A DNA stretch of 64,000 nt from an uncultured Ruminococcus sp. (lineage in GTDB: Bacteria; Bacillota; Clostridia; Oscillospirales; Acutalibacteraceae), in contig CACYTI010000007.1 of NCBI GenBank assembly GCA_902777275.1, forward strand, positions 1 to 64,000, in the 5' to 3' direction. A model generated the notes under the pieces. That model made no database searches, was not told the DNA's origin, and saw nothing but the letters and a program-made list of their open reading frames with translations. Positions 11,698 through 55,816 of the stretch are shown here, one piece after another. The position numbers and the translations under genes were made by a program. Position 1 is the first letter of the stretch. Every line of letters starts with the position of its first letter.

Positions 11698-13350
11698 ATG
11701 TCAGACAAATATTTTAATAACGAAAACAACGAATACTTTGATAACAATGAAAGCAACCGTATTGATAACAGCGAGAATACCAACGGCGAGAATACCAACG
11801 GCGAGAATACCCGCAATATATACGACGGTGACGAAAACTATTTCAGCCGTCCCGACGAAGCGGTAGAGGAAAGCTCATACGAATGGAACTCTGACCGCAG
11901 CTACAGAAACGGCGAATATCATTATTCGTATATCAACGGCAACAACAGCGGCGCCGACCACAACCCCAACAACTATGACGACGCTTTTTCCACCACGGGC
12001 AGCTCCGACAGCTACGCCTCAGAGCGCAATGACGACAGCTCGAACCCCTACAGCAGCAGCTACACGGGTCAGGCGGACAGCACGAGGGTCTACTCCTACG
12101 GAACAGAGCCCGCTCCGCAAAAGAAGAAAGAAAAGCGCAAGTCAAAGGGAGCTTCACGCGGCTTTGTAGCGGCAGCCCTGGCGATCGCGGTGCTCGGCTC
12201 CACAGCGGCGGGGCTCGGCGGAGGATTCCTGATCGCTAAGTCTCAGAACAGCTCGCAGACAAGCTCAAGCGGCAGCCTGACGATCAAGCAGGTCTCCTCT
12301 GACAGCGAGAACGCCACAAACGTCGCTTCCGACGGCACAACGCTTTCAACCACCTCTGACATCGTTAAAAAGACAGCGAACAGCGTTGTTGAGATCGCGA
12401 CCGAGGGAATAACAACAGGCACCTTTGCCCAGCAATATGTTACAAAGGGCGCGGGCTCGGGCGTTATCATTTCGGAGGACGGTTATATAGTGACCAACCA
12501 CCACGTTATCGACGGCGCGAACAAAATCACTGTCACCCTTCGCGACGGCACAACGACATATGACGCCAAGCTGATCGGCAGCGACGAGGACAATGACATA
12601 GCGCTTCTCAAAATTGACGCGTCCGGTCTTTCGGCAGCCACCTTCGGCAACAGCAGCGACCTCGTTGTAGGCGACTATGTTGTAGCGATAGGCAACCCGC
12701 TCGGCACCCTGGGCGGCACCGTTACCGACGGTATCATCAGCGCACTGGCGCGTGAGGTCACAATTGAGAACAAGAACCTTACCCTGCTGCAGACAAATGC
12801 GCAGATAAGCCCCGGCAACTCCGGCGGCGGACTCTTTAACGCAAAGGGCGAGCTTGTCGGCATTGTAAACGCCAAGGACAGCGCGACCGAGGTTGAGGGT
12901 ATCGCGTTCGCTATTCCGGTCAACAATGTTGTCGGCATCATCAAGGACCTCAAGGATTACGGCTATGTAACGGGCAAAATATCCACCGGAATGGAGTTTG
13001 TAGATATAAACTCATACGACAGCGCTTTCTACTATAATGTTTCCGCTTTAGGCGTGTATGTGCTTTCCGTTGAAAGCGGCTCCAACGCGGAGAAGGCGGG
13101 CTTCAGATCGGGCGACATGATTTCCGAGGTCAACGGCACGTCGGTGTCTTCGTCAGCCGAAATCGACAAGGCGCTTGAGAACAGCAAGGTCGGCGACACC
13201 GTGACATTTACCGTGACTCGCTCCGGCAAGCAGCAGAATCTCAGTCTTGAGCTGAGCGAGTATGTTCCGACAGTCAAGCCCAACGAAGAGCAGGATCAGC
13301 AGGAATTCAAGTCTAACGACAACCTCTGGAAGCAGCTCCTCGATTGGTAA
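11698..13350 (+). CDS. HtrA/DegP-like membrane serine protease with PDZ domain
   Basis: 550 residues. Order: a long polar, Asn/Ser/Glu/Tyr-rich cytoplasmic tail (1-140), a basic patch KKKEKRKSK, one transmembrane segment (about 155-180), a Ser-rich linker, a trypsin-fold protease domain (about 220-410) and one PDZ domain (about 430-520). The triad is complete: His269 in TNHHVID, Asp300 in DNDIALLKID, Ser375 in SPGNSGG. It degrades or refolds misfolded exported proteins at the outer face of the membrane, as HtrA/YkdA types do. The tail carries a 15-base tandem repeat (11771-11810) encoding ENTNG units. RBS AAGGAGG. A terminator follows at 13422. Confidence 0.93.
   Translation: MSDKYFNNENNEYFDNNESNRIDNSENTNGENTNGENTRNIYDGDENYFSRPDEAVEESSYEWNSDRSYRNGEYHYSYINGNNSGADHNPNNYDDAFSTTGSSDSYASERNDDSSNPYSSSYTGQADSTRVYSYGTEPAPQKKKEKRKSKGASRGFVAAALAIAVLGSTAAGLGGGFLIAKSQNSSQTSSSGSLTIKQVSSDSENATNVASDGTTLSTTSDIVKKTANSVVEIATEGITTGTFAQQYVTKGAGSGVIISEDGYIVTNHHVIDGANKITVTLRDGTTTYDAKLIGSDEDNDIALLKIDASGLSAATFGNSSDLVVGDYVVAIGNPLGTLGGTVTDGIISALAREVTIENKNLTLLQTNAQISPGNSGGGLFNAKGELVGIVNAKDSATEVEGIAFAIPVNNVVGIIKDLKDYGYVTGKISTGMEFVDINSYDSAFYYNVSALGVYVLSVESGSNAEKAGFRSGDMISEVNGTSVSSSAEIDKALENSKVGDTVTFTVTRSGKQQNLSLELSEYVPTVKPNEEQDQQEFKSNDNLWKQLLDW
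11771..11810 (+). repeat. 15-bp in-frame tandem repeat in htrA
   Basis: Units at 11771-11785 and 11786-11800 are identical (GCGAGAATACCAACG), with a partial third at 11801-11810. They encode ENTNG repeats in the cytoplasmic tail. Because the unit is a multiple of three, copy changes would alter tail length without breaking the frame. Confidence 0.8.
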
Positions 13351-32653: not shown

Positions 32654-32665
32654 TTTCAGCCCTCC

Positions 32666-34408
32666 TTACTCTTTTACGACCGCGCCGAATTTGCACACGG
32701 TAAAGCACTTGCCGCACTTTATGCACTTGTTCGGGTCGATCACATGGGGATTCTTAACTGTTCCCGAAATTGCGTTAACGGGGCAGTTTCTCGCGCAGAG
32801 CGTGCAGCCTTTGCACTTTTCGGGAATGATTTTATATTCGATAAGAGCGCTGCATTCGCCCGCAGGACATTTCTTGTCGCGGATGTGCGCCTCGTATTCG
32901 TCGCGGAAATATTTGATGGTCGTCAAAACGGGGTTGGGAGCAGTCTGACCGAGACCACAGAGCGCGCCGTCCTTAATGGAGTAGCACAGCTCCTCAAGCA
33001 GCTCGATATCTCCCTCTTTGCCCTCGCCGTTTGTAATGCGTTCAAGGATCTCAAGCATACGCTTGGTGCCGATGCGGCAGTGAATGCATTTTCCGCAGCT
33101 TTCCTTAGCCGTGAAATCGAGGAAGAACTTCGCCATGCCGACCATGCAGGTGCTCTCGTCCATTACGACCATGCCGCCCGAGCCCATGATAGCGCCCGTT
33201 GCGCCGAGAGCCTTGTAGTCGATCACGGTGTCGATAAGGTCGGTGGGGATACAGCCGCCCGAAGGACCGCCCATCTGCACAGCCTTGAACTCCTTGCCGG
33301 TTTTTATGCCGCCGCCGATATCAAAAATAACGTCGCGGAGCGTCTTGCCCATCGGGATCTCAACAAGACCCGAACGTTTTACCTTGCCGGTTACCGCGAA
33401 CACCTTGGTGCCCTTTGAGCCCTCGGTGCCCATAGCGGCGAATGCCTCGCCGCCGTTGTTGATTATCCAAGCGACGTTAGCGAAGGTTTCAACATTGTTG
33501 ATGTTTGAAGGCTTTCTCCAGAAGCCCGACTGAGCAGGGAAGGGAGGCTTGAGTCTGGGCATTCCTCTGTGACCTTCAAGACTCTCGATAAGCGCGGTCT
33601 CCTCGCCGCATACAAACGCGCCGGCGCCCGCCTTAATAGTAAAGTCGCATGAGAAATCCGAGCCGAAAATATTGTTGCCGATGATCCCTTTTTCGGTAGC
33701 CTGAGCAATTGCATTCTTCAATCTTTTGATTGCTAAAGGATACTCAGCACGGACATAAACGACCGCGTGCTTTGCGCCGATGGCGTAAGCGCCGATGAGC
33801 ATACCTTCGATTAAATTATGCGGGTCGGACTCGATGACAGCTCTGTCCATGAACGCGCCGGGGTCGCCCTCATCGGCGTTGCAGATAAGATATTTTTCTT
33901 CACCCGCACTCTGTCTCGCGGCGTTCCATTTGAACCATGTCGGGAAGCCCGCGCCGCCTCTGCCGGCGAGTCCCGAGGTCTTGATAACATCTATGACCTC
34001 TTCGGGCGTCATGTCGCAGAGAGCTTTTTTCAGCGCGGTGTAACCGTCAGCCTCAAGATAAGCGTCTATCTGCTCGGGGTTTATAATGCCGCAGTTGCGC
34101 AGAGCAATGCGGATCTGCTTTGATAAGAACTCGCTGTCCTCGGCGGAAACCTCTAACTTTTCAATAAAGCTTTTGTCGCCGCTATTTATATAAGAAGCGA
34201 TAGCCTCCGCGTCGTTCTCGGATACCTTAACAAGTCTTGTCAGCTTGTTGTCGTCGTCATAAATATCCACAATCGGTTCGAGGTAACACATACCGATACA
34301 GCCGGTAACCGAAACCTCGCAGTTGATATCGGCGCCGAGCAATGCCTTTCTCACCTTTTCCGCGCCTGCCGCTATGCCGCAGGAGCCTTGACCGATAACT
34401 ATTCTCAC
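32666..34408 (-). CDS. NuoF/HydB-like diaphorase subunit
   Basis: 580 residues. An N-terminal thioredoxin-like [2Fe-2S] segment (GSCGIAAGAEKV...TGCIGMC) precedes the NuoF core, where GLAGRGGAGFPTWFKW binds NADH and NADEGDPGAFMDR binds FMN. The [4Fe-4S] site is SCGKCIHCRIGTKR and a C-terminal 2x[4Fe-4S] ferredoxin domain (CKGCTLCARNC, CIKCGKCFTVC) follows. The subunit is the NADH port, where electron bifurcation is thought to occur in HydABC-type complexes. The start is GTG 34408, with GGAGG 7 bases before, overlapping the NuoE-like stop by 4 bases. A longer frame to 34531 lies inside the upstream gene and is rejected. Confidence 0.92.
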   Translation of the reverse strand: MRIVIGQGSCGIAAGAEKVRKALLGADINCEVSVTGCIGMCYLEPIVDIYDDDNKLTRLVKVSENDAEAIASYINSGDKSFIEKLEVSAEDSEFLSKQIRIALRNCGIINPEQIDAYLEADGYTALKKALCDMTPEEVIDVIKTSGLAGRGGAGFPTWFKWNAARQSAGEEKYLICNADEGDPGAFMDRAVIESDPHNLIEGMLIGAYAIGAKHAVVYVRAEYPLAIKRLKNAIAQATEKGIIGNNIFGSDFSCDFTIKAGAGAFVCGEETALIESLEGHRGMPRLKPPFPAQSGFWRKPSNINNVETFANVAWIINNGGEAFAAMGTEGSKGTKVFAVTGKVKRSGLVEIPMGKTLRDVIFDIGGGIKTGKEFKAVQMGGPSGGCIPTDLIDTVIDYKALGATGAIMGSGGMVVMDESTCMVGMAKFFLDFTAKESCGKCIHCRIGTKRMLEILERITNGEGKEGDIELLEELCYSIKDGALCGLGQTAPNPVLTTIKYFRDEYEAHIRDKKCPAGECSALIEYKIIPEKCKGCTLCARNCPVNAISGTVKNPHVIDPNKCIKCGKCFTVCKFGAVVKE

Positions 34409-34884
34409 AGTGCCGCCTCCCTTAATTCTTTGAGGATTTTCTTTGTCTTGTCGGGCGTAAGGCTGCCGTAGGTGTCCTCGTTGATCATCATAACGGGTGA
34501 CAGTGAGCAGCAGCCCAGACAGGCAACGCATTTCAGCGAGAACAAGCCGTCCTCTGTAGTTTGTCCGTCCTCGATGCCGAGCTCGTCCTTGATAGTCTGT
34601 AAAATCAGCTCCGATGAGTTAACGTGGCACGCCGTGCCCTGACAGAGCATGATAAGATACTTTCCGACAGGCTCAAAACGGAACTGGGTGTAAAAGGTTC
34701 CCACGCCCATTATTTCGGATGTCGCTATACCTGTTTTGTCGGAAATCAGCTCAATGGCTTCCTTAGGGAGATATCCGTAGATATCCTGAGTGTGCTGTAA
34801 GATGGTGATCAGACTGCCCTTTACCGGCGCGTATTCCTCAAGAACACCGTCGAGCAGGGACAGATCCACTGTTTTTTTCTCCAA
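34405..34884 (-). CDS. NuoE/HydC-like [2Fe-2S] subunit
   Basis: 159 residues, thioredoxin-like [2Fe-2S] protein of the 24-kDa complex I family. Cluster ligands lie in CQGTACHVNSS and KCVACLGCCSLSPV. It passes electrons to or from the NuoF-like partner. The start is a TTG at 34884, preceded by an excellent GGAGGT with 7-base spacing; the longer frame to 35106 runs through AT-rich DNA that contains the promoter. First gene of the three-gene operon. Confidence 0.92.
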   Translation of the reverse strand: MEKKTVDLSLLDGVLEEYAPVKGSLITILQHTQDIYGYLPKEAIELISDKTGIATSEIMGVGTFYTQFRFEPVGKYLIMLCQGTACHVNSSELILQTIKDELGIEDGQTTEDGLFSLKCVACLGCCSLSPVMMINEDTYGSLTPDKTKKILKELREAAL

Positions 34885-41668: not shown

Positions 41669-41708
41669 GCCGACTTTTACTTAAAGAGCAAAGGCCGGCT
41701 TTATTTAT
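41669..41708. terminator. Bidirectional terminator between map and the ECF operon
   Basis: GCCGACTTTT pairs with AAAGGCCGGC (41669-41678 with 41690-41699, G:T pairs). T-rich on the plus side (TTTATTTATT), A/T-rich on the other. Confidence 0.55.
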
Positions 41709-44329
41709 TCTATAATAGAATTATACATATCATATTTTATTTTTATTCTGTCAAGCTTTTCGAGCATTGGATCAGCCAAAAAGAACAGGAAAACCGCTGT
41801 TGACGCGCCGTGGATCATGTCGAACGGCAAGCCCTGCGCCATAAACGCCAAAACGGATTCATAGCTCACGAGCGTGCGCGACAGAATAAGCGAGGAAAAA
41901 TTCATTATTCCTCCGTAAACCGCCACTGTCATTACAAAGCCGTACACACACAGAACCGCTTTGTTTTGCAGAAAGAAGCCTCTGCCGAGCAATAACCCCG
42001 AGATAAAGCCGATTATGCCCGCCGCGAACATCTGCCACGGCGTCCACGCGCCCTGCCCGAAAAAAATATTTGACACTAACATTGACACCGCTCCTATCAC
42101 AAAGCCCGTTTCACTTCCGAACGCCGCGCCGCAGATCATAACGAGCGCTAAAACAGGCTTGACTTGCGGAAGCGCGGCAAAGGCTGAGCGCCCCGCGATG
42201 GTTATCGCACACATCACCGCGATGAGCACAAGCTCGCGCGCCTGCGGCTTTCTGCCCTCGAACATCAAAAAGAACGGAACCATTGCTTCAAGAATTATCA
42301 GCAGCGAGATGAAAATATATTTTTGATCCTGCAAAAACACCACTCCCGCGTAAATCGTGAACGGAATAAGCAGCGCTGTGACAACGGCTGCCGCGACGAT
42401 CGCTTTTGCGGGCTTTTGATTTTTGTATGCCTTTGGCTTTATCCGTCGCGTTTTTGTGCCGAATGCGACCATGAGGAGCACAACTGCAATTGCGATAAAA
42501 GAATAATTTGCCCAAATCGGAAGCGTTTCAGTCTTTAAAAACGGAAGCGCGTTCAGATTCACTAAAATACCGAATAACAGCATAACCGCGCCTGATGCTC
42601 CGCAAAGCCTTTTCCAAAGCGGCAGCTTTTTTTTTGACTTTTCGGGTATTTTTTTGTGAACCGCTGTCGCAGCTTTCGGTTTATTCAAAGGGATATCGGG
42701 CGGAAGCTCCCCCGTGCAGCAGAAAATCACGTCCTCAGCCGTTATCGCGCCGGGGATAATTTTTGCCGCCATTCGCGTTGCCGAGGTCACATAAAAGCTG
42801 TTTGAGCCGAAGAATTCTCTCGGCGTACCGCCCGCGATAAGCTCGCCGTTGAACATCATAAGGCAGCGGTGGCAGTATTTCGCGCAAAACTCGGTGTCGT
42901 GGCTAATCATCACCACAGCTGCGCCGTTTTTTACAAGACTGTTGATTATTATTGCGAACTCTGCCTTGAAATGCGCGTCAAGCCCTTTTGTCGGCTCGTC
43001 AAGCAGCAGAATATCCGGAGACAGCAGAAGCAGCTTGGCGAGCGCCGCCTTTTGCATTTCTCCGCCTGACAAATCAAAAGGGTGCCTTTCGGTCAAATCC
43101 TCAAGCTGACATAGCTCTATTACCGATTGAAGCCGAAGCTCCCGTTCCCCCTGCGGAAAATTCGCGTTGATCAGGGCGTTTTCAAGAGTCTGAGCCACGG
43201 TGGAGCCGTCAAAAAGCACCTGCGGATTTTGCGGCATAGTAAGGCATAATTCGTTATTAGAAATATATTTTCCACTGTACGGCTTGTTTGTGCCGTTCAG
43301 CAGAGAGATCAGAGTGCTTTTGCCCGTGCCGTTGCCGCCCAGAACCGCTAAAAACTCGCCCTTTTTCACAGTCAGGCTAAGACTCTTTATAACGTCGGGA
43401 GAGTTCTTTTCATATCTGAACCACACGTTTTTCAGCTCAACAGCCGTTTCTCCGGCAGGCGGGATTTTCTCGGGCGGAAGCGCGACAAGCTCGTTCGTTT
43501 TGGAAAAGTGCCCAAGCCATTCCCTGCCCTGAGCGATGGTAACGGGACAGGGCGCGCCGTCTTTATCGACCGCGTCCCATATCCGCATAGGAGAAGGCAG
43601 CGAGTAAAAGCAGCCGCTTTTTGCTTTTTTCAGGTTTGCGCCGGTGTTTTGCGGCGTGTCGTCCGAGATTATCGCGCCGTTTTCGATCACAATGACTCGG
43701 TCGCTTACGGGGATAATTTCCTCAAGGCGGTGCTCGGTTATGATTACCGTCACCCCGAGCTCACGGTTGATTTTTGCTACGCAGGCGAGGAAATCCGCCG
43801 CCGCGATCGGGTCAAGCTGAGAAGTCGGCTCGTCAAGAATGAGAAGCTCCGGCTGCATTGCAGTGACAGAGGCGAGGTTAAGCAGCTGCTTTTGACCGCC
43901 CGAAAGTTGAGATACGCTCGACTCGAACATCTGCTGAATTCCGAAAAACGACGCCGTTTCAGCCGTTCTTCGGCGAATCACATCCTGCGGCAGCCCGAGA
44001 TTTTCCAAGCCGAAGGAAAGCTCGTGCCACACCTTGTCGGTCACTATCTGGTTTTCGGGCGACTGCTGAACAAAGCCGATTTTTTCGCTCTGCTCTCTCA
44101 TGTCAAGAGATTTTATGTCCTGTCCGTTAAACAGCACTCTCCCCTGCCCTGTGCCGTGCGGAGTGAGCGCGGGCTTTAAATGGCGCAGCAGAGTGCTTTT
44201 TCCGCTGCCCGAAACGCCGCACAGGGTCACAAATTCGCCGTTCCTGATTCGGATGTTTATATTTTTTAAAACGTCGCTGTCGCTTTGGGGATAGCAAAAG
44301 CTTAGATTCTCGATCGCAAGCATTTCCAT
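41705..44329 (-). CDS. ECF transporter fusion: ATPase-ATPase-S-component
   Basis: 874 residues. Two complete ABC ATPases: Walker A GVSGSGKST (38-46), LSGGQ (142-146), DEPT (166-169); second copy GGNGTGKST (331-339), LSGGE (420-424), DEPT (444-447). After a linker (about 530-575) come roughly eight hydrophobic helices (580-874). The final five or six read as an ECF S-component (ALPQVKPVLALVMICGAAFG, GWTPW-like loop GAWTPWQM). Normally EcfA, EcfA' and the substrate-binding S protein are separate. With EcfT encoded immediately upstream this is a dedicated importer. The riboswitch and the DUF4430/toroid genes in the same operon point to cobalamin as cargo (CbrT-like role). The start has GGAGGGG before it; the gene overlaps ecfT by 28 bases. 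Confidence 0.88.
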   Translation of the reverse strand: MEMLAIENLSFCYPQSDSDVLKNINIRIRNGEFVTLCGVSGSGKSTLLRHLKPALTPHGTGQGRVLFNGQDIKSLDMREQSEKIGFVQQSPENQIVTDKVWHELSFGLENLGLPQDVIRRRTAETASFFGIQQMFESSVSQLSGGQKQLLNLASVTAMQPELLILDEPTSQLDPIAAADFLACVAKINRELGVTVIITEHRLEEIIPVSDRVIVIENGAIISDDTPQNTGANLKKAKSGCFYSLPSPMRIWDAVDKDGAPCPVTIAQGREWLGHFSKTNELVALPPEKIPPAGETAVELKNVWFRYEKNSPDVIKSLSLTVKKGEFLAVLGGNGTGKSTLISLLNGTNKPYSGKYISNNELCLTMPQNPQVLFDGSTVAQTLENALINANFPQGERELRLQSVIELCQLEDLTERHPFDLSGGEMQKAALAKLLLLSPDILLLDEPTKGLDAHFKAEFAIIINSLVKNGAAVVMISHDTEFCAKYCHRCLMMFNGELIAGGTPREFFGSNSFYVTSATRMAAKIIPGAITAEDVIFCCTGELPPDIPLNKPKAATAVHKKIPEKSKKKLPLWKRLCGASGAVMLLFGILVNLNALPFLKTETLPIWANYSFIAIAVVLLMVAFGTKTRRIKPKAYKNQKPAKAIVAAAVVTALLIPFTIYAGVVFLQDQKYIFISLLIILEAMVPFFLMFEGRKPQARELVLIAVMCAITIAGRSAFAALPQVKPVLALVMICGAAFGSETGFVIGAVSMLVSNIFFGQGAWTPWQMFAAGIIGFISGLLLGRGFFLQNKAVLCVYGFVMTVAVYGGIMNFSSLILSRTLVSYESVLAFMAQGLPFDMIHGASTAVFLFFLADPMLEKLDRIKIKYDMYNSIIE

Positions 44330-45207
44330 TTTATCCCCTCCGAAACATTGATAATCAGCGGCGTAAGCAGCAGCAAGGCATAAACGCAGTAAAAAATTAC
44401 GGGAAACACGCCCGTAAGCTCGCCCTTTAACGACGGAAAATATCTGAATTTGAGTTGTCCGCCGAACAGCAAAGCGCAGAGCGCGACGGTTTCAGATACA
44501 ATAACCGAAAGCGCTGCGGCGTCGCTCCTATGAAAACTGAAAAGCGAGAACGCCGTGCGCCCTTTCAGCCCGTATCCGCGGCTTTTCATCGAGTCCGAGG
44601 TTTCTATGGCGTTTTCCATTGACCAACCGATCATAGCCGAAAACACCCCCGACACGGCTTTGAACCGCGCCAATAGTTTGCGGGAAGCTTTTGATCCCGA
44701 CGTTGATGCTCGCGTCATTTGCCGCTGCGCCCTCATTGTTTCTTTGAACCGCATTGTAAAAAGCGGGATAAAGCGCAGCGCCATAGCCAAAATCAAGCTG
44801 AGCGCGGGAGATATTTTCCCAAAAAGAAAAATAATCTTGTCCGAGTTTATAACGGCGTTGAAGGAGCTGAACCACAGCGCCGCCGAGCTGATCACAGCCG
44901 CCGATACAAAGCCGTAAAGTATTGATTCCAGCGTCAGCGGATTGCCCCACGGCAGATAGCACAGCACTGTCGCTCCCCTGTGATTTACAAGCGGATTGAT
45001 GATAATTATAAACAAAGAAGCCGGAAGCAGGAATTTAAGGCTCAGCGACACGGCTTTTTTTCCGTTCAGATACAGCGCGTTTGCAAGAGCGCAGAGCAGA
45101 CCTATCGCAACGCAAACGGGCTGAGTTATTAAAAATGAAAATGTGATCGCAGCCGCGAAGAACAGAAAGCTCACAAGCGGATGTGTTTTTGAAAACGAAT
45201 CTCTCAT
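44302..45207 (-). CDS. ecfT: ECF transporter transmembrane subunit EcfT
   Basis: 301 residues, about six hydrophobic helices. EcfT motifs are visible: the coupling-helix region RFIPLFTMRFKETMRAQRQM and the second short motif SMKSRGYG, where the Ala/Ser-Arg-Gly triplets contact the ATPases. It joins the S-component to the ATPase pair. The start is ATG 45207, one base after the stop of the DUF4430 gene; an upstream in-frame ATG at 45234 is possible. Part of the five-gene riboswitch operon. Confidence 0.9.
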   Translation of the reverse strand: MRDSFSKTHPLVSFLFFAAAITFSFLITQPVCVAIGLLCALANALYLNGKKAVSLSLKFLLPASLFIIIINPLVNHRGATVLCYLPWGNPLTLESILYGFVSAAVISSAALWFSSFNAVINSDKIIFLFGKISPALSLILAMALRFIPLFTMRFKETMRAQRQMTRASTSGSKASRKLLARFKAVSGVFSAMIGWSMENAIETSDSMKSRGYGLKGRTAFSLFSFHRSDAAALSVIVSETVALCALLFGGQLKFRYFPSLKGELTGVFPVIFYCVYALLLLTPLIINVSEGIKWKCLRSRI

Positions 45208-45208
45208 A

Positions 45209-46087
45209 TCAGTTATATTTGATGTTGTCTCCACCGATATCCCTGCCCAAATCGCAGGTGTACAGCCATTCTATTTTATCGCCGTCGTGAACGGTGTACC
45301 GCGAACACCCGTAATTCGGAAAAACGCCGTTGACCCTGTACATCCAGCCCGAGCCGGAGCCGCAGTCAAACTCGTAAAGATTGCCGATTCCCTCGATGTA
45401 AGCGGTGTTGTATAAGGGTGTGGTGGTGTATTCCATATGTATATTATTCCGTACGCAAACGCGGCTCAGTATGTCAAAAACGTTTTCTCCCTCGGTGAAT
45501 TTTTCGGTCGTCACGCTTAGAATCACCCCGTCTGAGGGTATCACCTCGGCAACGTCATCGTCAAGCTCGTCAATGCGCGCGAGGGCGGTAGAACAGGATA
45601 TTGAAACAGTGCAGGTTTTCTCGGTTGAAACGGTCGTTTTCTCCTGAGGCTTCGGCTTTGTCGCGGGCTGTGCCGAGGTCGGAGCGGGAGAGGTTTTTGG
45701 AGGATCGGTCGCCTTTTGTTCCGCCGCGCGGGTTCCGGCTTCGGACTTTTCGGGAGTTTGATTACCCAGAGACGGATTTGCCGCCTGATTTACCGTCGCT
45801 TTAGATGAAACCGACGTTGCAGGAGCTGTGGAACCGACTGCGGTCGAAGCAGCAGGAGAAGCCGTTGATGATAATTGTCCGGAGGCAGCCTGAGAGGTTT
45901 TTTCCGCTGCGCCGTTTGCCGCAGCGGAAGTGTAAATTTCTTTTTTAGAATTAACCGCAGACTGCGTCTGTTGCTCAAGCGTGCTTTTTGAAAGGCTTCC
46001 GCCGCATAAAAACGCTATGACAAGAGCCGCTATGACAGCCGCTGAAATTCCGATAATCAGTTTGTGTTTTTTAATAAACGGGATCAT
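45209..46087 (-). CDS. Membrane-anchored DUF4430 (transcobalamin-like) protein
   Basis: 292 residues. One N-terminal transmembrane anchor (about 8-28) is followed by a long Ser/Ala/Thr/Pro linker (about 35-155), suited to reach through the wall. The C-terminal DUF4430 domain (about 160-290) contains GENVFDILSRVC, GSGSGWMYRVNGVFPN and the final YTVHDGDKIEWLYT. DUF4430 is the bacterial relative of the beta-domain of intrinsic factor and transcobalamin. There is no dockerin: this copy is the membrane-tethered member. The start is ATG 46087 with GAGGAA. It is 10 bases after the toroid gene and 1 base before ecfT, so it is probably the hand-over protein between capture and import. Confidence 0.88.
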   Translation of the reverse strand: MIPFIKKHKLIIGISAAVIAALVIAFLCGGSLSKSTLEQQTQSAVNSKKEIYTSAAANGAAEKTSQAASGQLSSTASPAASTAVGSTAPATSVSSKATVNQAANPSLGNQTPEKSEAGTRAAEQKATDPPKTSPAPTSAQPATKPKPQEKTTVSTEKTCTVSISCSTALARIDELDDDVAEVIPSDGVILSVTTEKFTEGENVFDILSRVCVRNNIHMEYTTTPLYNTAYIEGIGNLYEFDCGSGSGWMYRVNGVFPNYGCSRYTVHDGDKIEWLYTCDLGRDIGGDNIKYN

Positions 46088-46097
46088 AACTATTCCT

Positions 46098-47255
46098 CTA
46101 TTGAGCGAGCAGCTTTTGCAGCAGAGTAACGTCTCCGATATCGACCTGTCCGTTTTCATTCAGGTCAGCGAGCTTTTTTTGCGAAGTGCTCAGCGGAGAG
46201 TCAAATTCGGCAAGAAAACGCTGCAAATATGTTGCGTCGTTTATAGTCAGATATCTGTCGCCGTCAACGTCGTACACCGCAAGGTTTTTGATATCGGTCA
46301 TATCATACAGGAATTTTTGATTGTTTTTAAGCCTTTTAAAAGCTGTCATTGCATAAAAAACCTGTTCGGTTGCCATTTGGTTATAGCCCGCTCCCGATTC
46401 GTGCTCAAAGCCGTTCGGTACAGAGAACTTCATTACGGTATCCCACAGGGAAACGCCGCCTGAGACAAACCGTTCGTCGGTTTCGCAGTTAATGCCCAAA
46501 GCGCACAGCGCGGTAATGACCTGAGCGCAGCTTTCGGGATTAAAGCCGGCGCTTTCGTTTTGCATTGCAGCAAGCCTGTTGACGGCGCGGTCAACAGCGG
46601 ATCGAACTTCTTCGCCGTAAAAGCGGTAGGGCGCCAGCGCCTGCAAAGCCATGCCTGTCATATCGGGATCGGAAACGTCACCGTTCATGCTCCAGCCGCC
46701 GTCGGGACATTGATTATCTATTATAGCCGAAATCAGATTTTCGCGCGTCACTTGGTTTTCGCCGCTGTTATTTTCGGGAATGGGATAGTTATGGGAATCC
46801 AAGGCTATCAGCGCCCAAATAACGCCGTTCAAGCCCTGAGCCGACACGTAATCGTAATCGGATAGCGGCGCGAGCAAATCATAGCCTTCAACATCATCGG
46901 CTGTTTTTCCGATTGAAGCCAAAGCTAAAATAACGCGCGAGTTCTCGGTCGATTTGCGGCGGTGCAGCTTGTCCGAGCCGACCGCCTTAACGTATTCGCA
47001 AACCGTGTTATAATACTCTGTTTTTTCGGCGTCATCAAGAAGCTCTCCGCGCGACAGCCCAATAACTCTCCATTCGCCGCCGATCGAGCCGACCTGCATC
47101 GGGAGCGTTTTTAGATGTTCGGCGGTGCCGCTGTATTTTTCATTAAAAGCTTCCCGCGACAGCGCAGAGGCGTGTCCGACCGAGCCGAACAAAGTCAATG
47201 TGCAAAGCAGCAGGCACAGCGCGGTATATCGCAAAGAACGGCGGTTAAGACCCAT
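46098..47255 (-). CDS. Secreted alpha/alpha-toroid protein with C-terminal dockerin
   Basis: 385 residues. A signal peptide (about 1-32) precedes an all-helical domain (35-320) of the prenyltransferase/squalene-cyclase repeat type. Repeats read VGSIGGEWRVIGLSRG, NGVIWALIALDS, NQCPDGGWSMNGDVSDPDMTGMALQAL and SAGFNPESCAQVITALCALGI. The alpha domain of human intrinsic factor and transcobalamin has the same alpha6/alpha6 toroid fold. A type I dockerin ends the protein (about 326-385), with two calcium loops: VDGDRYLTINDATYL and LNENGQVDIGDVTLL. It lies between the two DUF4430 genes. My reading is a B12-binding alpha subunit; a generic structural toroid is the alternative. Confidence 0.85.
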   Translation of the reverse strand: MGLNRRSLRYTALCLLLCTLTLFGSVGHASALSREAFNEKYSGTAEHLKTLPMQVGSIGGEWRVIGLSRGELLDDAEKTEYYNTVCEYVKAVGSDKLHRRKSTENSRVILALASIGKTADDVEGYDLLAPLSDYDYVSAQGLNGVIWALIALDSHNYPIPENNSGENQVTRENLISAIIDNQCPDGGWSMNGDVSDPDMTGMALQALAPYRFYGEEVRSAVDRAVNRLAAMQNESAGFNPESCAQVITALCALGINCETDERFVSGGVSLWDTVMKFSVPNGFEHESGAGYNQMATEQVFYAMTAFKRLKNNQKFLYDMTDIKNLAVYDVDGDRYLTINDATYLQRFLAEFDSPLSTSQKKLADLNENGQVDIGDVTLLQKLLAQ

Positions 47256-47261
47256 ATTTTA

Positions 47262-48248
47262 TCAACCCTTTAAATCATATTCGGCAATGATTCTCTGCAT
47301 TTGAGTTGCGTCGTTGATATCGACTTTTCCGTTGCCGTCAACGTCGGCAACAGCAAGCTGTGACTCGCTGAGAGTTTCAAACTCGCAGAGGCAGCGCTGC
47401 AAAAATGTTACGTCTTCTATCTCAACCTCGCCGCTGCCGTTGAAATCTCCCAAAACGGGAACGAATTTCACGTTTACGGTATAAACCGTTTCATCGGCTA
47501 TGCCGACCCAGCTGTTCATCGTAGGCCACGCCGGATTGCCTACTCCGATGTAAAGCACGTCGCCGTCGCTCACCTCAACCGGCAGGCTCTTTTTAAGCTC
47601 GGTTCCGTTTACCTCGGGCTGATACTCGTTTTTATAAACCCTGACCTGATAATTTTTGTTGTAGGCTTCGGGCGCAAGGGTGATTTCGGCGTTTTCTTTT
47701 GAGATGTTTACCGTGTATTCTGTCTGAGCCGGATCAAACTCCGCCGTGAACGTTCCTCCCGTTGCCGAAAGCGCGTTGAGCGAGGTGTTCAAATCGCCGT
47801 ACAGACTGCCGCAATCCGCGCCCCAGTCATTTGTGTACATCATTACAATTTCGTCGTTAGCCTCAAGACCGCCGTTTTCAACGGTGTAATCTGTGGTTGC
47901 GCTGCTTGTGAACCAGTCGTTCAAAGTCGCCATCCAGCCGCCGCTGCCGTCGTGAGCCATTTCGCTGAGACCGTTGATCGACGAAATGTAGCCGTAGTCC
48001 GATATCTCAAACGGGAAGCCCTTTGATGTGATCGCGTTTTCAATAACCGATTCCATCGAATCAGTTTCCGAAAGCGGCGCCCACTCGTCGATAAGCACGC
48101 CGTCCCAAGCCGCGCCGTCGGCGGTTGAGAATTTGTCGTTCTTTACGACAATGTGAACCATGTCCGAGCTTTCCGCAGACGCGCCCAAAGCGCCCGCGGC
48201 GGATAATACGATACCGAAAGCCAATGTTGTTGAGATGATTTTTTTCAT
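47262..48248 (-). CDS. Secreted DUF4430 protein with beta-sandwich and dockerin
   Basis: 328 residues. Signal peptide (1-25), then a DUF4430-type domain (about 28-145) with DSMESVIENAITSKGF, GGWMATLNDWF and LEANDEIVMMYTNDWG. A cadherin-like beta-sandwich follows (about 150-262), then a dockerin (about 268-328) with calcium loops GDFNGSGEVEIEDV and ADVDGNGKVDINDA. First gene after the cobalamin-type riboswitch. The DUF4430 domain corresponds to the beta-domain of transcobalamin; with the toroid protein next door it could rebuild the two-domain vitamin clamp. The start is ATG 48248 with GGAGG; the frame back to 48284 has no better signal. Confidence 0.85.
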   Translation of the reverse strand: MKKIISTTLAFGIVLSAAGALGASAESSDMVHIVVKNDKFSTADGAAWDGVLIDEWAPLSETDSMESVIENAITSKGFPFEISDYGYISSINGLSEMAHDGSGGWMATLNDWFTSSATTDYTVENGGLEANDEIVMMYTNDWGADCGSLYGDLNTSLNALSATGGTFTAEFDPAQTEYTVNISKENAEITLAPEAYNKNYQVRVYKNEYQPEVNGTELKKSLPVEVSDGDVLYIGVGNPAWPTMNSWVGIADETVYTVNVKFVPVLGDFNGSGEVEIEDVTFLQRCLCEFETLSESQLAVADVDGNGKVDINDATQMQRIIAEYDLKG

Positions 48249-48311
48249 TTGTTCCTCCTGATTTTTCAGACAAATAGCTTCCAAAAAAGCAAAATGCCTT
48301 TCTTTATTTTT

Positions 48312-48377
48312 ATAAAGAAAAGCACATCACAAATAACCGCACGGCAATGCGGTTGTTTTATAATTGTGGTTGTGCTT
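48312..48377 (-). terminator. Attenuator hairpin of the riboswitch
   Basis: On the minus strand a long imperfect stem. AAGCACA with TGTGCTT forms the base (48377-48371 with 48326-48320), AACCGCA with TGCGGTT the top, followed by TTCTTTATTTTTA. It lies between the riboswitch core and the first gene, as in transcription-attenuation control. Confidence 0.7.
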
Positions 48378-48384
48378 CTTCTTA

Positions 48385-48575
48385 TCCAAGAATACAATCC
48401 AAGCCAACGCGGAAGCGACCCGACTCACCCGCAAAAAGCGGATACACGGTAATGAAAGTTGCTGCGGATTCTGACCGCATTCCCTATTACCCGCCCCAAA
48501 GTAGCGGAACGCGAAAGCTGTCGGGAGAACGCCGATTTTTGCGGATGCTCTCCCCTATTAATTTTTCTGTTTGCT
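48385..48575 (-). promoter_or_regulatory. Cobalamin-type riboswitch (variant)
   Basis: Read on the minus strand, the core AATAGGGAAT-GCGGTC-AGAATCCGC-AGCAA (48488-48459) matches the conserved B12-riboswitch block AGGGAA..GGTG.AAATCC..C.GC. It is preceded by a hairpin with GGGAGA/TCTCCC arms and followed by a GC-rich region ending GCGGGTGAGTCGGGTCGC. Some positions differ from the classical consensus (GTCAGAATCC rather than GTGAAAATCC; no CCCGCNACTGT). It may therefore be a class II or divergent adenosylcobalamin aptamer. It controls the DUF4430/toroid/ECF operon, presumably off when B12 is plentiful. Confidence 0.75.
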
Positions 48576-49546: not shown

Positions 49547-49663
49547 AATCCCACTCCCGATTCAACCAAAGATATTTTAGCACTTTGAAAAGTTGAAATC
49601 AAGTTTTTTTCACCTGATCCCCAGCTCCTCATAAAATGACAACAGGAACACGGAGATGATTTG

Positions 49664-49909
49664 ATGAAAAACAACTGCTGCAAGCTCAGCGAGCTTCCAC
49701 TGATGACCGAGGCCGCAATAACGAGCGTCGAAATTGACAACGCGCTTACAAGGAGAATGGCTCAGCTCGGAATTTCACGGGGTGAGATGATCACGCCTGT
49801 TTTTAAAAGCCCGTTCGGAGATCCCATCGCATACAGCGTAAAGGGCTGCGTGGTCGCGCTGAGAAAATCGGACTGCGAAGCGATAAAAGTCGGCGTTGAG
49901 GTAAAGTGA
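49664..49909 (+). CDS. feoA: Ferrous iron transport protein A
   Basis: 81 residues, SH3-like FeoA. It shows the pattern RRMAQLGISRGEMITPVFKSPFGDPIAYSVKGCVVALRKSDC. FeoA is a small cytoplasmic partner needed for FeoB-dependent Fe(II) uptake. The ATG at 49664 has CGGAG 8 bases upstream. Its stop overlaps the feoB start, so the two are coupled. Confidence 0.93.
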   Translation: MKNNCCKLSELPLMTEAAITSVEIDNALTRRMAQLGISRGEMITPVFKSPFGDPIAYSVKGCVVALRKSDCEAIKVGVEVK

Positions 49910-51744
49910 TGAAAAAATACAGCGTCGCGCTTGCGGGCAACCCTAATGTAGGAAAAAGTACGATATTCAACGCGCTGACGGGCTTGAAGCAGCACACGGG
50001 AAACTGGACGGGGAAAACCGTCGACTGCTTTGAGGGACAGTTTGAGGAAAACCAGGCGGAGTTTTTCGTCACCGATCTGCCGGGAGCGTATTCATTGATC
50101 TCATACTCCCGCGAGGAAGCTGTCACGGCGCATTGCCTGAGAAAGCGAGAATATGACTGCGTGATTCTTGTGCTCGACGCGGGAGCGCTTGAGCGGAACC
50201 TTTGCTTTGCGCTTGAGGTGCTGTCGCTGAACGTAAATGCCGTTATCTGCCTGAATCTAACCGATGAAGCGGAGCAAAAGGGCATAATCATCGACGATAA
50301 AGCTTTATCTGAGGCTTTCGGTTTGCCTGTTGTGAGGTGCTGTGCCGTTAAAAAGCAAGGTATAAAAGAGCTGAAAGCCGCCGTAAATAACGCCTGCGAA
50401 GCTCCAAGAACCGCAAGGCTTGATTTCTGTCCGGATTATTCGGACGGAAAGAAAAATATTGAAATAATCAGCAAATACAGCAGAAAGCTCTGCTCGGGCT
50501 GCGTCACCGTGACCGAAGGCGATAAAATAAAACATGACCGCAGGCTTGACAGAATGCTGACCTCAAAAGCTCTCGGCATTCCCGTTATGCTTTTGCTGTG
50601 CGGTCTGCTGTTTTGGATAACGGTCGCGGGCGCGAATTATCCGAGCGAATGGCTGAATTACCTGTTCGGAGCCGTTAAAAACAGGCTTGACGAATGGAGC
50701 GCGGCGCTTAGTCTCCCGCCGTTTTTGTCGGGCTTGCTCATTGACGGAGTGTATTCAACGCTGACTCGGGTAATAGCCGTAATGCTTCCGCCGATGGCGA
50801 TATTCTTTCCGCTGTTTTCTCTGCTTGAGGATTCGGGATATATGCCGAGGATCGCTTTTAACCTTGACAGGATTTTTTCGCGCTGCGGAGCGCACGGCAA
50901 GCAAAGCCTGTGCATGATGATGGGTATAGGCTGCAACGCCTGCGGAGTTACGGGCTGCCGGATAATCGAAAACAAAAAAGAGAGGCTTATCGCCGTAATT
51001 ACAAATAATTTTATGCCCTGCAACGGACGTATGCCCATTCTGATCTCGCTTCTCATGATGTGCTTTTCGGGCGCGGAGTTCGGGTTTAGCTCGTCGTTTC
51101 TTATTTCTTTTTCCTTGGTCGGGGTGATAGCCTGCTGCGTGATCGTCACGCTGCTTGTTTCAAAGCTGCTTTCCGCGCTGTTAAAGAGCGGCGGAGAATC
51201 GGGCTTTGTGCTGGAGCTTCCTCCCTTCCGCAGACCTCAGATAATCAAAACCTTAGCGCGCTCCTTTTGGGACAGAACCTTGATCGTGCTCGGCAGAGCC
51301 GTTGTCGTAGCCGCTCCCGCAGGAGCAATAATCTGGCTGTGCGCGAACATTTATGTTGGAGACGCTTCGATTTTAAAGCACTGCACCGATTTTTTAGATC
51401 CGTTCGGACGCTTTTTAGGCTTGGACGGCGTAATAGTAATGGCGTTTATTTTGGGCTTTCCCGCAAATGAAACCGTCATACCGATTATTATCATGTCATA
51501 CTCGGCAACGGGAGCGCTGACCGATTTTGAGGGCTATAACGAGCTTTTCAGCCTGCTTTCGCAAAACGGCTGGACTATAACTACCGTTGTCTGCATGATA
51601 ATAATGACCGTGATGCATTTTCCCTGCTCCACAACCTGCCTCACCATAAAAAAAGAGACGGGAAGCATAAAGTGGACGCTGCTTTCAATGGCGGTTCCGA
51701 CCGTCTGCGGAATCGCGCTCTGCGCTGTCGTTTCGCATATTTAA
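49909..51744 (+). CDS. feoB: Ferrous iron transporter FeoB
   Basis: 611 residues. The N-terminal G-domain has G1 GNPNVGKST, G3 DLPGAYSL and G4 NLTD. A short GDI-like region follows, then about eight membrane helices with the Gate motifs (FPLFSLLEDSGYMPRIAF, GIGCNACGVTGCRII, PCNGRMPILISLL). The conserved Cys of GCNACG is typical of the iron path. It imports Fe(II), which is abundant in anaerobic gut settings. It is on the short side for the family, mostly from a short linker. ATG 49909 overlaps the feoA stop; a GTG at 49906 is an alternative. Confidence 0.96.
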   Translation: MKKYSVALAGNPNVGKSTIFNALTGLKQHTGNWTGKTVDCFEGQFEENQAEFFVTDLPGAYSLISYSREEAVTAHCLRKREYDCVILVLDAGALERNLCFALEVLSLNVNAVICLNLTDEAEQKGIIIDDKALSEAFGLPVVRCCAVKKQGIKELKAAVNNACEAPRTARLDFCPDYSDGKKNIEIISKYSRKLCSGCVTVTEGDKIKHDRRLDRMLTSKALGIPVMLLLCGLLFWITVAGANYPSEWLNYLFGAVKNRLDEWSAALSLPPFLSGLLIDGVYSTLTRVIAVMLPPMAIFFPLFSLLEDSGYMPRIAFNLDRIFSRCGAHGKQSLCMMMGIGCNACGVTGCRIIENKKERLIAVITNNFMPCNGRMPILISLLMMCFSGAEFGFSSSFLISFSLVGVIACCVIVTLLVSKLLSALLKSGGESGFVLELPPFRRPQIIKTLARSFWDRTLIVLGRAVVVAAPAGAIIWLCANIYVGDASILKHCTDFLDPFGRFLGLDGVIVMAFILGFPANETVIPIIIMSYSATGALTDFEGYNELFSLLSQNGWTITTVVCMIIMTVMHFPCSTTCLTIKKETGSIKWTLLSMAVPTVCGIALCAVVSHI

Positions 51745-53187: not shown

Positions 53188-53224
53188 TCAAACATATTAA
53201 CATTTTGCGGGGATGAGGAAAGAT

Positions 53225-55816
53225 ATGGAAAAGCTACGGTTTATACTGACCAAGGAAGGCTTTCGCGCGGACGATGTTGTTTATGCGGAGAAAGATCCGG
53301 TAAAATGGTTTGTAAAATTTACAAAATCACCCTATGAAACGCTCTATGAGCTGTCGTTTCGGGAGCGACCCGATTGCTTTGACGCTGCGGGAATATTTCT
53401 GTGTCAATTCGCGGAACATTTTACAGCTGAATTAACGGCTGTCTCGGGCTTGGAGCTTAGCCGTGAAAAAACAGAGCTTGTTCCAAACGAAGAAACTATC
53501 GAAATATTGCTCGACTCCGTTCCGTTTGCGCTTGGCGCGGAATTTGTGACGCGCACTTGGATAAAACGGCAGTACCGTAAGCTGTTGGCGGTGTTCGCAA
53601 AGCAAATCAAAACGTATAATGGGAAGGTTTCGCTCTACTTTGCCGAAAAAAGCCAGAAGCTCCATGTTCCCGAACGCGTGTTTTTCCATTTGGTGGAAAA
53701 CAGTGAGGGCGAGTGTCCCTTCGCGTTTTTAGCCACCTACGCTACCAAGGGCGACGGCGGACGCGTGCGTCACGTGCCGCTGCGATACGCGCTGACGGAG
53801 TACCGCGATGACCGCTCAAAGCTGCTGGAGCTGCTCGCCTGTCTGAATAAGGCGGCGGAACGATCAGAGTTGATCGGAGAGTTGATGGAAAGCGGCGAGC
53901 TGTTCCATCCGCTGCGGTTCAACGCCGATGAAGCGTTCCGATTTTTGAAGGATGTTCCGATTTATGAGAGCTGCGGAATTCTGTGCCGTATTCCGAATTG
54001 GTGGAAACGCCGCTACAGCTCTGTAACGATGACGGTTAAAATGGGCGAGGACAAGCCCGCTCTGCTCGGTCTTGACGGCTTGCTGCACATGGTGCCGTCT
54101 CTCACGGTCGGCGGCGTTCCGCTTACAGAGGAAGAGATCCGCGACCTGCTCAGTCAGTCAGAGGGATTGTCATTTATAAAGGGCAAGTGGATTGCCGTAG
54201 ATCACGAGCGTCTTCGCAGATTGCTTGACGAGATGAAAAAATATGACGGCGATATTACGCTTTTGGACGCGCTGCGTTCGGAAATCAAAAATGTCGATGA
54301 TGAAGAGGACGTCGGACCTGTCATTACCAACGGCAAATGGCTGGGCGGTTTGCTGAAAAGCCTGCGAAATCCGCGGAAACAGAAAAACATAGGCACGCCT
54401 GGGAGCTTTTGCGGAGAATTGCGCCCTTATCAGGAGGTTGGCTATCAATGGCTCCTGCAAATGAATCAGCTCGGCTTCGGCGCTTGTCTTGCCGACGATA
54501 TGGGACTGGGCAAAACCGTGCAGATTTTAGCCTTTTTGGAAGCACTGCGTGAGAAAAAGCCGAGCGCAAAGGTGCTGCTGATCGTACCCGCCTCGCTATT
54601 AGGCAACTGGCAAAAGGAGGCTGCGCGGTTCGCACCCGGTTTGACCATGGATATCCTGCACGGCTCCAACAGTTCAACATTATCCGAACGGTTCGAGCGA
54701 TCTGCCGCGTTTCTCACCATAACCACCTACCGCATGGCGCTCTCTATTGAAGCTCTCACAAAGCCGTTATGGAGTTGTGTAATTCTTGACGAGGCGCAGG
54801 CTATCAAGAATCCGCTTGCCAAACAGACAAAGCAAATCAAAAAGCTTCGGAGCCGTATGCGTATCGCCATGACGGGTACGCCTATCGAAAACGACTTGTC
54901 TAATCTCTGGTCGCTGTTCGATTTTCTGAACAAGGGACTGCTGGGCAGCTCGGAGGAATTCCGGCGCTTTTGCAAAGGCTTGGAGCAAAACCCGGAGGGT
55001 TACGCCAAGCTGAAAAGAATGATCGCGCCGTTCCTGCTCAGGCGCGTCAAAACCGATAAAAAGATTATTTCCGATTTGCCCGACAAGCTGGAGCAAATTG
55101 ATTATGTTACGCTTTCTCCCAAGCAGACAGTGCTCTATCGCAAGCTGCTTGCGGAAACGCAGGAGAAGGTGTTGACAAGCGACGGTATACAGCGCAGGGG
55201 CATTGTGCTCGCCCTTCTGCTGCATTTGAAGCAGATTTGCAATCATCCCGACCAGTATCTGGGAACAGAGGAATACAGCCCGACGCAGAGCGGCAAGTTT
55301 GAGCTGCTCAAACAGCTTGCGCAGACGATTGCCGAAAAACGCGAGCGTGTGTTGGTGTTCACTCAATTCAAAGAGCTGACGGGTCATCTTGATGATTACT
55401 TGGCGGAGGTGTTTGGCAGGCGCGGCAGCGTGATACATGGCGGCGTTCCCGTCAAGGAACGCAGTGAGATCGTTGAGCGTTTTCAAAGTGACGCCTATGT
55501 GCCTTATTTAGTGCTGTCTGTCAAGGCAGGCGGAACGGGCTTGAACCTGACGAACGCAAATCACGTCATTCACTTTGACCGCTGGTGGAACCCGTCAGTG
55601 GAAAATCAGGCGACTGACCGAGCCTTCCGTATCGGTCAGCAGAAAAATGTAATGGTGCACAAATTCGTCTGCAAGGGCTCGGTTGAGGAAAAGATCGACA
55701 CTCTGATCTCCTCAAAAAAGGAGCTTGCCGAAAACGTCATCGGTGCGGGCGGAGAGAGCTGGATCACCGAAATGAATAACGACGAGCTGATGGATCTGCT
55801 GCGCTTGGAGGTGTAG
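53225..55816 (+). CDS. SNF2-family helicase-like ATPase
   Basis: 863 residues. The N-terminal 400 residues form the bacterial SNF2-associated domain, without a SWIM motif of its own. The ATPase follows: motif I LADDMGLGKTVQIL, motif II LDEAQAIKNP, motif III MTGTPIEN, motif V SVKAGGTGLNLT and motif VI QATDRAFRIGQ. It translocates on double-stranded DNA, removing or remodelling bound proteins; the cellular role of bacterial RapA-unrelated SNF2 proteins is poorly known. Start ATG 53225 with GAGGAAAG; ATG 53213 is an alternative. The SWIM protein gene follows 2 bases after the stop. Confidence 0.93.
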   Translation: MEKLRFILTKEGFRADDVVYAEKDPVKWFVKFTKSPYETLYELSFRERPDCFDAAGIFLCQFAEHFTAELTAVSGLELSREKTELVPNEETIEILLDSVPFALGAEFVTRTWIKRQYRKLLAVFAKQIKTYNGKVSLYFAEKSQKLHVPERVFFHLVENSEGECPFAFLATYATKGDGGRVRHVPLRYALTEYRDDRSKLLELLACLNKAAERSELIGELMESGELFHPLRFNADEAFRFLKDVPIYESCGILCRIPNWWKRRYSSVTMTVKMGEDKPALLGLDGLLHMVPSLTVGGVPLTEEEIRDLLSQSEGLSFIKGKWIAVDHERLRRLLDEMKKYDGDITLLDALRSEIKNVDDEEDVGPVITNGKWLGGLLKSLRNPRKQKNIGTPGSFCGELRPYQEVGYQWLLQMNQLGFGACLADDMGLGKTVQILAFLEALREKKPSAKVLLIVPASLLGNWQKEAARFAPGLTMDILHGSNSSTLSERFERSAAFLTITTYRMALSIEALTKPLWSCVILDEAQAIKNPLAKQTKQIKKLRSRMRIAMTGTPIENDLSNLWSLFDFLNKGLLGSSEEFRRFCKGLEQNPEGYAKLKRMIAPFLLRRVKTDKKIISDLPDKLEQIDYVTLSPKQTVLYRKLLAETQEKVLTSDGIQRRGIVLALLLHLKQICNHPDQYLGTEEYSPTQSGKFELLKQLAQTIAEKRERVLVFTQFKELTGHLDDYLAEVFGRRGSVIHGGVPVKERSEIVERFQSDAYVPYLVLSVKAGGTGLNLTNANHVIHFDRWWNPSVENQATDRAFRIGQQKNVMVHKFVCKGSVEEKIDTLISSKKELAENVIGAGGESWITEMNNDELMDLLRLEV

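Follow-up and report, generated by a model that had tools for sequence, protein, structure and literature searches.

Bacterial kin of the animal intrinsic factor were the subject of a 2007 study by Burroughs, Balaji, Iyer and Aravind (PMC1796856). The available part of that study names the superfamily, reports bacterial toroid fusions in both orders, and describes operons in which two extracellular SLBB proteins accompany CbiO and CbiQ, in hosts that usually lack key enzymes of vitamin B12 synthesis. It predicts B12 scavenging for these bacterial operons, and also a transfer to animals. Here we analyse an operon of this kind in a 64,000-nucleotide stretch from an uncultured Ruminococcus sp. 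(assembly GCA_902777275.1, contig CACYTI010000007.1, positions 1 to 64,000), which as a whole we call the window. The operon is single and compact, occupies 41705-48529 on the minus strand, and runs from a leader through the genes for D1 (a secreted DUF4430 protein), TOR (a secreted alpha/alpha-toroid protein), D2 (a membrane-anchored DUF4430 protein) and EcfT to the gene for an EcfA-EcfA'-S fusion. It shares with the systems in the available 2007 text the DUF4430-type domain, the signal peptides, the SLBB/CbiO/CbiQ operon and the proposed B12 scavenging. What sets it apart from them is that both secreted halves carry dockerins and that some relatives have a cohesin gene inside the operon; a term search of the main text of the 2007 paper returned no 'dockerin'. 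A sequence-only reading of the window had put forward a bacterial B12 capture device. The function it proposed is probably right, but the idea has largely been prior art since 2007; what looks new is the attachment by dockerins, together with the cohesins that some relatives encode in the operon.

We read the operon as a cell-surface scavenging and import system for corrinoids (B12), in which a dockerin-docked, transcobalamin-like catcher would feed a CbrT-type importer, and we put the probability of this reading at roughly three in four. We favour it because the S domain is CbrT-like, leaders of the family RF00174 accompany such operons, CbiC was not found in the operon genomes tested, relatives have toroid-DUF4430 fusions, and a model of one such fusion matches transcobalamin, haptocorrin and intrinsic factor. 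On the same grounds, the earlier proposal that capture of the transcobalamin or intrinsic-factor kind feeds an energy-coupling factor (ECF) importer is well supported. When B12 is scarce, the cobalamin riboswitch would permit expression of the operon. D1, with its DUF4430 beta-grasp domain, and TOR, with its toroid, would form the two secreted halves of a transcobalamin-like binder, and their dockerins would plug into the cohesins of surface scaffoldins, holding the halves at the surface, possibly side by side. Judging from the fold and the fusions, B12 would most likely be bound between the toroid and DUF4430, as in transcobalamin. It might then be handed from D1 and TOR to the membrane-tethered D2 and on to the CbrT-like S domain, and EcfT and the two fused ATPases, to go by the importer's composition, would drive the B12 held by the S domain across the membrane.

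The animal carriers transcobalamin, intrinsic factor and haptocorrin contain the same two folds, a toroid and a beta-grasp domain, and are the best matches of the model of a toroid-first bacterial fusion. In the window, by contrast, the binder is spread over two secreted proteins, carries additional cadherin-like and dockerin modules, and is encoded with an ECF importer; the animal carriers are taken up by receptor-mediated endocytosis. The BtuG and DUF4465 binders of Bacteroides have other folds and work in an outer-membrane setting. They likewise capture B12 at the surface or in secreted form for uptake, according to the available text of PMC6143338 and PMC13398666. The transporter ECF-CbrT, as far as it is described in the available text of PMC5997447, has the S-component family and the EcfAA'T composition in common with the window importer; in the window, one polypeptide combines the S domain with both ATPases, and the operon also encodes extracellular capture proteins. 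A proteome paper on L. rhamnosus carries the label 'Additional lipoprotein component of putative cobalamin ECF transporter'.

With respect to the dockerins, the closest described system is the amylosome of Ruminococcus bromii, which we take to be of the same genus as the window organism. In the available text of PMC5814915 and PMC9112005, dockerin proteins sit on cell-surface scaffoldins, the subject is starch degradation, and 22 'Doc' proteins are listed beside the dockerin amylases; the main text of the two papers does not contain 'B12'. A term search of the available part of a 2024 cellulosome survey (PMC11557425) returned no B12, cobalamin, toroid or DUF4430. By title and the start of the abstract, no report of dockerin-bearing B12 proteins was found in the open-licence literature, a search that does not cover subscription papers and preprints.

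Importer, leader and B12 economy of the host genomes

All parts of an ECF importer (two EcfA ATPases, EcfT and an S component) are present in the operon by profile matches. To place the S domain, we used a profile built from 25 sequences, the window's included (25 of the 40 in hand). Against the PDB, this profile matched 6FNP chain A (CbrT) with an E-value of 1.1e-17; lesser matches were RibU (3p5n, E 0.003) and chain S of 4hzu, labelled 'Predicted membrane protein' (0.004). The structure 6FNP is ECF-CbrT of Lactobacillus delbrueckii, for which the available text of PMC5997447 reports transport of both cobalamin and cobinamide. The kinship of the S domain thus suggests that the window importer is of the CbrT type and would transport cobalamin. 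Riboflavin or another vitamin was considered as the substrate and rejected: PF07155, a riboflavin-type S family, is the S-region match among the 25 Pfam families listed, but the profile favours CbrT by many orders of magnitude. Overall, the S domain was found in 75 of the 118 relatives searched.

The leader is the only match to RF00174 at E<=0.1 in the window genome. An alignment of 12 orthologous leaders, including that of the window, showed a conserved core with covariation: 10 of the 20 predicted pairs changed on both sides with pairing kept, and the pair 66-80 appeared as GC in four sequences, AU in four and UA in four, broken in none. Several pairs, outer ones, were broken in some rows. 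For a wider view, RF00174 was searched in 36 operon genomes, picked from the 75 with an S domain, and was found at E<=0.01 in 28 and above the gathering score in 20. Among the 33 matches, 26 lie on a contig from which the operon was fetched, and 23 of these are located between -84 and +591 nucleotides from the start of the nearest same-strand open reading frame (ORF) of at least 150 amino acids. This ORF is a recognised operon gene in 21 cases; in the other two (G033 and G104:C24) it is truncated at the border of the fetched stretch and unclassified. Cobalamin is the inferred ligand of the window leader. The sequence-only reading had staked itself on both the riboswitch class and the orthology of the S domain. 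Checked by sequence, the family of the leader is cobalamin and the nearest S component is CbrT, that for B12, so that neither point speaks against it. As a separate observation, one relative (L062, G104:C34, minus strand) has tandem cobalamin riboswitch matches of 41.4 and 33.3 bits before a single operon, at 11285-11432 and, just beyond the fetched stretch, at 11867-11995 (locus coordinates).

The host genomes themselves point in the same direction. CbiC, the marker of B12 synthesis that we looked for, was found in none of the 27 operon genomes, the window's among them, of which 19 reach 90% completeness or more with no more than 5% contamination. All 27 carry a B12-binding domain, which scores above the cut-off in 26. 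The window organism is thus probably unable to make B12 yet uses it. Its main B12 user is probably a single protein with a B12-binding domain, whose open frame spans 825 codons and which, by size and domain, is likely a methionine synthase. For R. bromii, the available text of PMC6231298 states that B12 is not synthesised and reports that B12-dependent methionine genes drop in co-culture with R. gnavus, for which its authors suggest limiting B12 as a possible reason.

Toroid and DUF4430 proteins in relatives and in models

The DUF4430 domain, an SLBB beta-grasp, is above the Pfam cut-off of 23.8 bits in both D1 and D2 (Table 1), and at E<=0.001 the 2.59 Mb window genome has no further DUF4430 match. 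The toroid of TOR matches Pfam Prenyltrans with an E-value of 0.006, under the cut-off. Among its relatives, SQHop_cyclase_C matches at E<=1 in 41 of 49 aligned sequences, a set of which 7 are toroid-free D1 proteins. We therefore regard TOR as an alpha/alpha toroid on account of these matches and of its 51% identity to the toroid of R. bromii, which was modelled with a predicted local distance difference test score (pLDDT) of 94. A direct sequence link between this toroid and transcobalamin was also sought and is unsupported. A Pfam scan found no PF01122 (eukaryotic cobalamin-binding; cut-off 25 bits) in the window TOR, and transcobalamin was not among the PDB matches of the toroid profiles A2, A6 and A4 or of the single sequence L124 at the thresholds used; the link came only from PF01122 in the relatives L124 (24.3 bits, E 1.9e-5) and L097 (16.2 bits, E 0.005) and from the structure search.

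The association of the two domains was followed in named genomes, for which we took the best 80 of 576 loci (the 80-locus set). A toroid, a stand-alone DUF4430, EcfT and S are all present in 54 of the 80, and in 53 of these 54 toroid and DUF4430 come first, followed by EcfT and then S, the exception being L095. Each of 27 loci has one ORF in which toroid and DUF4430 are fused; when only the first domain of either kind is considered, 17 of these fusions are DUF4430-first and 10 are toroid-first. These natural fusions argue that the separate D1, TOR and D2 of the window work together. They also qualify a contrast drawn earlier, that the bacterial binder is split and the animal one is not: the domains are indeed separate in the window, but separation does not define the bacterial systems. 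Pieces of the operon in two metagenome-assembled genomes labelled Nitrososphaerota archaeon (L147) and Paludibacteraceae (L104) are perhaps misbinned Firmicutes contigs.

AlphaFold2 models were made of two natural fusions, one DUF4430-first (L100, from R. bromii ATCC 27255) and one toroid-first (L139). The former (542 residues, with leader and dockerin removed) reached a pLDDT of 94.3 and a predicted template modelling score (pTM) of 0.77. In a Foldseek search of the PDB it matched a mixture of TED domains, farnesyltransferase, cyclases and transcobalamin, the best transcobalamin match having an E-value of 1.0e-4 at rank 14. Since these matches cover many kinds of toroid, this model shows the fold and not the family. 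The toroid-first model (pLDDT 83.3, pTM 0.66) gave a different list: its 15 best PDB matches are all transcobalamin, haptocorrin or intrinsic factor, ahead of any cyclase, the alignments spanning 428-475 columns and the matched chains 378-414 residues. Taken as whole chains, model and carriers superpose with template modelling (TM) scores of 0.31-0.42 and a root-mean-square deviation of about 11-12 A. The beta domain by itself compares with the isolated human transcobalamin beta domain at a TMt of 0.72-0.74 and with the R. gnavus structure 3u7z at 0.61-0.63. AlphaFold2 did not reproduce the arrangement of the two domains seen in the animal proteins, so the model does not show the clamp geometry that had been proposed, in which B12 would be held between them.

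Dockerins, cohesins and competing explanations

Type I dockerins are found above the Pfam cut-off of 22.9 bits at the C-termini of both D1 and TOR (Table 1). They align with the other dockerins of the window genome and keep both calcium loops, as judged by what we take to be the calcium-loop motif. The sequence-only reading had seen a Gram-positive-type surface device for B12 capture, and this view is retained; it had overlooked that both secreted proteins could be attached by dockerins. A profile search of the window genome returned 63 dockerin matches and four cohesin matches. Ruminococcal cohesins are divergent. The cohesin ORF with the highest hmmscan score (24.2 bits) has an apparent C-terminal membrane segment. 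Two further proteins of this genome deserve mention in their own right. A 997-residue cohesin-like protein (G000:C11, L222 5091-8084; 20.6 bits) that has an X25 domain of the pullulanase type and what appears to be a C-terminal anchor is a possible amylosome-like surface scaffoldin. A 777-residue protein (G000:C6, L224 1096-3429) has a dockerin of 36.0 bits and a cohesin match in the genome profile search but not in hmmscan, and is a possible adaptor scaffoldin.

To compare anchors across relatives, we scored the 55 loci of the 80-locus set with at least one toroid and at least one DUF4430 ORF, dropping 25, by local hidden Markov models (HMMs). S-layer homology (SLH) domains occur in 31 loci, dockerins in 13, neither in 11 and both in none. 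When 34 large proteins picked from loci lacking a clear dockerin were scanned with Pfam, SLH was found in 23 and Dockerin_1 in 3; the dockerin of L153, missed by the local HMM, scores 23.1 bits, just above the Pfam cut-off. The surface anchor that tethers this one capture module therefore differs between bacteria, with SLH in some loci and dockerins in others. Cohesin matches (E<=0.001) are present in 25 of the 27 operon genomes, both with and without a dockerin in the operon; therefore, the presence of cohesins alone cannot separate the two kinds of operon.

Some relatives go further and encode a cohesin in the operon itself. In eight distinct loci (L059, L061, which is the same as L120, L062, L125, L149, L153, L228 and L229), the gene immediately preceding D2 encodes a cohesin. 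This gene is about 207-237 codons long, or 189 in L061, where it is cut by the contig end. All six cohesins scanned are above the Pfam cut-off, with 25.6-38.3 bits; a protein search picked up those of L228 and L229 at 65% and 49% identity. By eye, six of the in-operon cohesins have an N-terminal hydrophobic segment. The protein encoded before the cohesin gene bears a dockerin in all seven loci where it is visible, L061 beginning at a contig end. This dockerin is above the Pfam cut-off in L062, L125, L149 and L153 and below it in L059 (20.5 bits); in L228 and L229 it was found as a weak match of the local HMM (E 1.2e-4 and 0.0036 in a small set). Plug and socket are thus both encoded within the B12 import operon of some relatives. 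The arrangement is rare, being found in 3 of 394 genomes sampled in the taxonomic order and in 3 of 15 selected genomes. One genome (G061) has two B12-type operons, of which L058 is split and has dockerins and L059 encodes a large fusion together with a cohesin of its own.

Several results weigh against the surface-capture reading or parts of it. The window leader scores 23.4 bits, under the RF00174 gathering score of 31.5, so that no match at gathering level exists in the window; 8 of the 36 operon genomes have no RF00174 match, and 3 of the 26 placed matches lie farther away from the operon. Importers lacking the capture genes also exist, as 20 of the 80 loci have no DUF4430 ORF and 25 have no toroid ORF; contig ends account for part of these, but some, such as L092, L113 and L128, have long flanks. 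For the toroid, PF01122 is matched by two distant relatives only, both under the cut-off, and the PDB matches of the toroid profiles are terpene and squalene cyclases and TED domains instead of transcobalamin. The toroid-first model fails to reproduce the inter-domain angle of transcobalamin. As for the sockets, hmmscan of the four cohesin ORFs of the window genome placed one just above the cut-off (24.2 bits) and one below it (20.6 bits), and detected no cohesin in the whole ORFs of the other two; a dedicated in-operon cohesin gave no match in this genome.

The last of these points bears on an explanation in which the B12 system is right and the dockerins are incidental, the secreted scavengers riding on the cellulosome or being shed and D2 alone delivering B12. 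D2 is already membrane-anchored, and the 11 loci with neither dockerin nor SLH by the local HMMs would also fit. Nevertheless, the dockerins of both secreted proteins keep both calcium loops, eight relatives retain a cohesin gene beside D2, and SLH anchors replace dockerins in many relatives, so that surface display looks selected, and we consider incidental dockerins unlikely. The stronger proposal is that cohesin-dockerin docking, familiar from polysaccharide-degrading complexes, is also a vitamin-capture architecture, which in cellulosome or amylosome bacteria would hold the clamp halves side by side on surface scaffoldins and, in some relatives, provide a membrane-anchored cohesin socket within the import operon, where the catcher could be exchanged beside the importer. 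To this proposal we give even odds.

The remaining explanations concern the ligand and the toroid. Another corrinoid, a B12 precursor such as cobinamide, or a related tetrapyrrole might be the substrate in place of cobalamin itself. That CbrT carries cobinamide as well as cobalamin (PMC5997447, available text) would agree with a precursor, as would the lack of CbiC matches in the operon genomes, a search that did not extend to salvage genes; the family of the riboswitch and the CbrT-like S domain speak against heme. This substitution seems rather doubtful. It is far less probable, and in our view hardly credible, that the toroid is a cellulosome enzyme of the terpene-cyclase or polysaccharide-lyase type that stands in a vitamin operon by chance. 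Toroid folds are common, the PDB sequence matches are cyclases and TED domains, and the structural matches of the R. bromii model are mixed. On the other hand, the position of the toroid beside DUF4430 genes under a B12 riboswitch is conserved, it is fused directly to DUF4430 in 27 of the 80 loci, and once both domains are present in the toroid-first order, the animal carriers head the match list.

Layout of the window and possible meaning of the operon

The coordinates of the operon are collected in Table 1. The parts listed earlier (two DUF4430 proteins, a toroid, EcfT, an ATPase-ATPase-S protein and a leader) are all present, although two of them, the toroid and the leader, score weakly in the window alone and draw their support from relatives; that list lacked the C-terminal dockerins of both secreted proteins and the cadherin-like domain. 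Signal peptides and the anchor and linker of D2 were read by eye from the sequence. D1 likely starts at the ATG at 48248, with AGGAGG in front of it, its ORF as called extending to 48284. D2 likely starts at the ATG at 46087, slightly inside the ORF as called (45209-46159), and EcfT has an ATG at 45207, immediately after the D2 stop.

Table 1. Positions of the operon features in the window.
Feature	Position	Strand	Evidence
Cobalamin-riboswitch-like leader (RF00174 variant)	48393..48529	-	23.4 bits, E 4.4e-4, spans whole model 1-189
D1, secreted: signal peptide (by eye), DUF4430, cadherin-like domain, dockerin	47262..48248	-	
D1 DUF4430	47808-48164	-	Local HMM limits; Pfam 25.6 bits
D1 cadherin-like domain	47472-47774	-	Pfam Cadherin-like 27.1 bits
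D1 C-terminal dockerin	47289-47453	-	Pfam Dockerin_1 38.0 bits
TOR, secreted alpha/alpha-toroid protein with C-terminal dockerin	46098..47255	-	
TOR toroid	46302-47102	-	51% identity to modelled R. bromii toroid
TOR C-terminal dockerin	46107-46274	-	Pfam Dockerin_1 29.9 bits
D2: N-terminal membrane anchor, Ser/Thr/Ala/Pro-rich linker, C-terminal DUF4430	45209..46087	-	
D2 DUF4430	45257-45490	-	Pfam 71.8 bits
EcfT transmembrane coupling protein	44302..45234	-	CbiQ PF02361 37.6 bits
EcfA-EcfA'-S fusion	41705..44329	-	TIGR04520 342.9 bits, two ABC domains, PF07155 43.6 bits
S domain of fusion, CbrT-like	about 41777-42412	-	PF07155 at residues 697-851

Elsewhere in the window, a ferrous iron uptake locus lies near the operon on the opposite strand (49661-51744), with FeoB identified by NCBIfam and a short ORF at 49661-49909 that looks FeoA-like. 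A possible electron-bifurcating complex is encoded at 30449-34531, where the proteins resemble NuoF and glutamate synthase and have hydrogenase-related pieces at the N- and C-termini. An SNF2-type helicase at 53213-55816 has partial likeness to phage-defence helicases, far under the cut-offs of those models.

With this locus, the 2007 bioinformatic prediction on bacterial kin of intrinsic factor becomes a concrete, testable system, and one that sits in organisms related to the gut bacterium R. bromii, which depends on the B12 of others. The split, dockable halves would offer a natural system for studying how the transcobalamin clamp assembles around B12. If the docking is true, it would account for some of the dockerin proteins that have no assignment in such genomes, and the cellulosome or amylosome would be a nutrient-capture platform besides a digestion machine.

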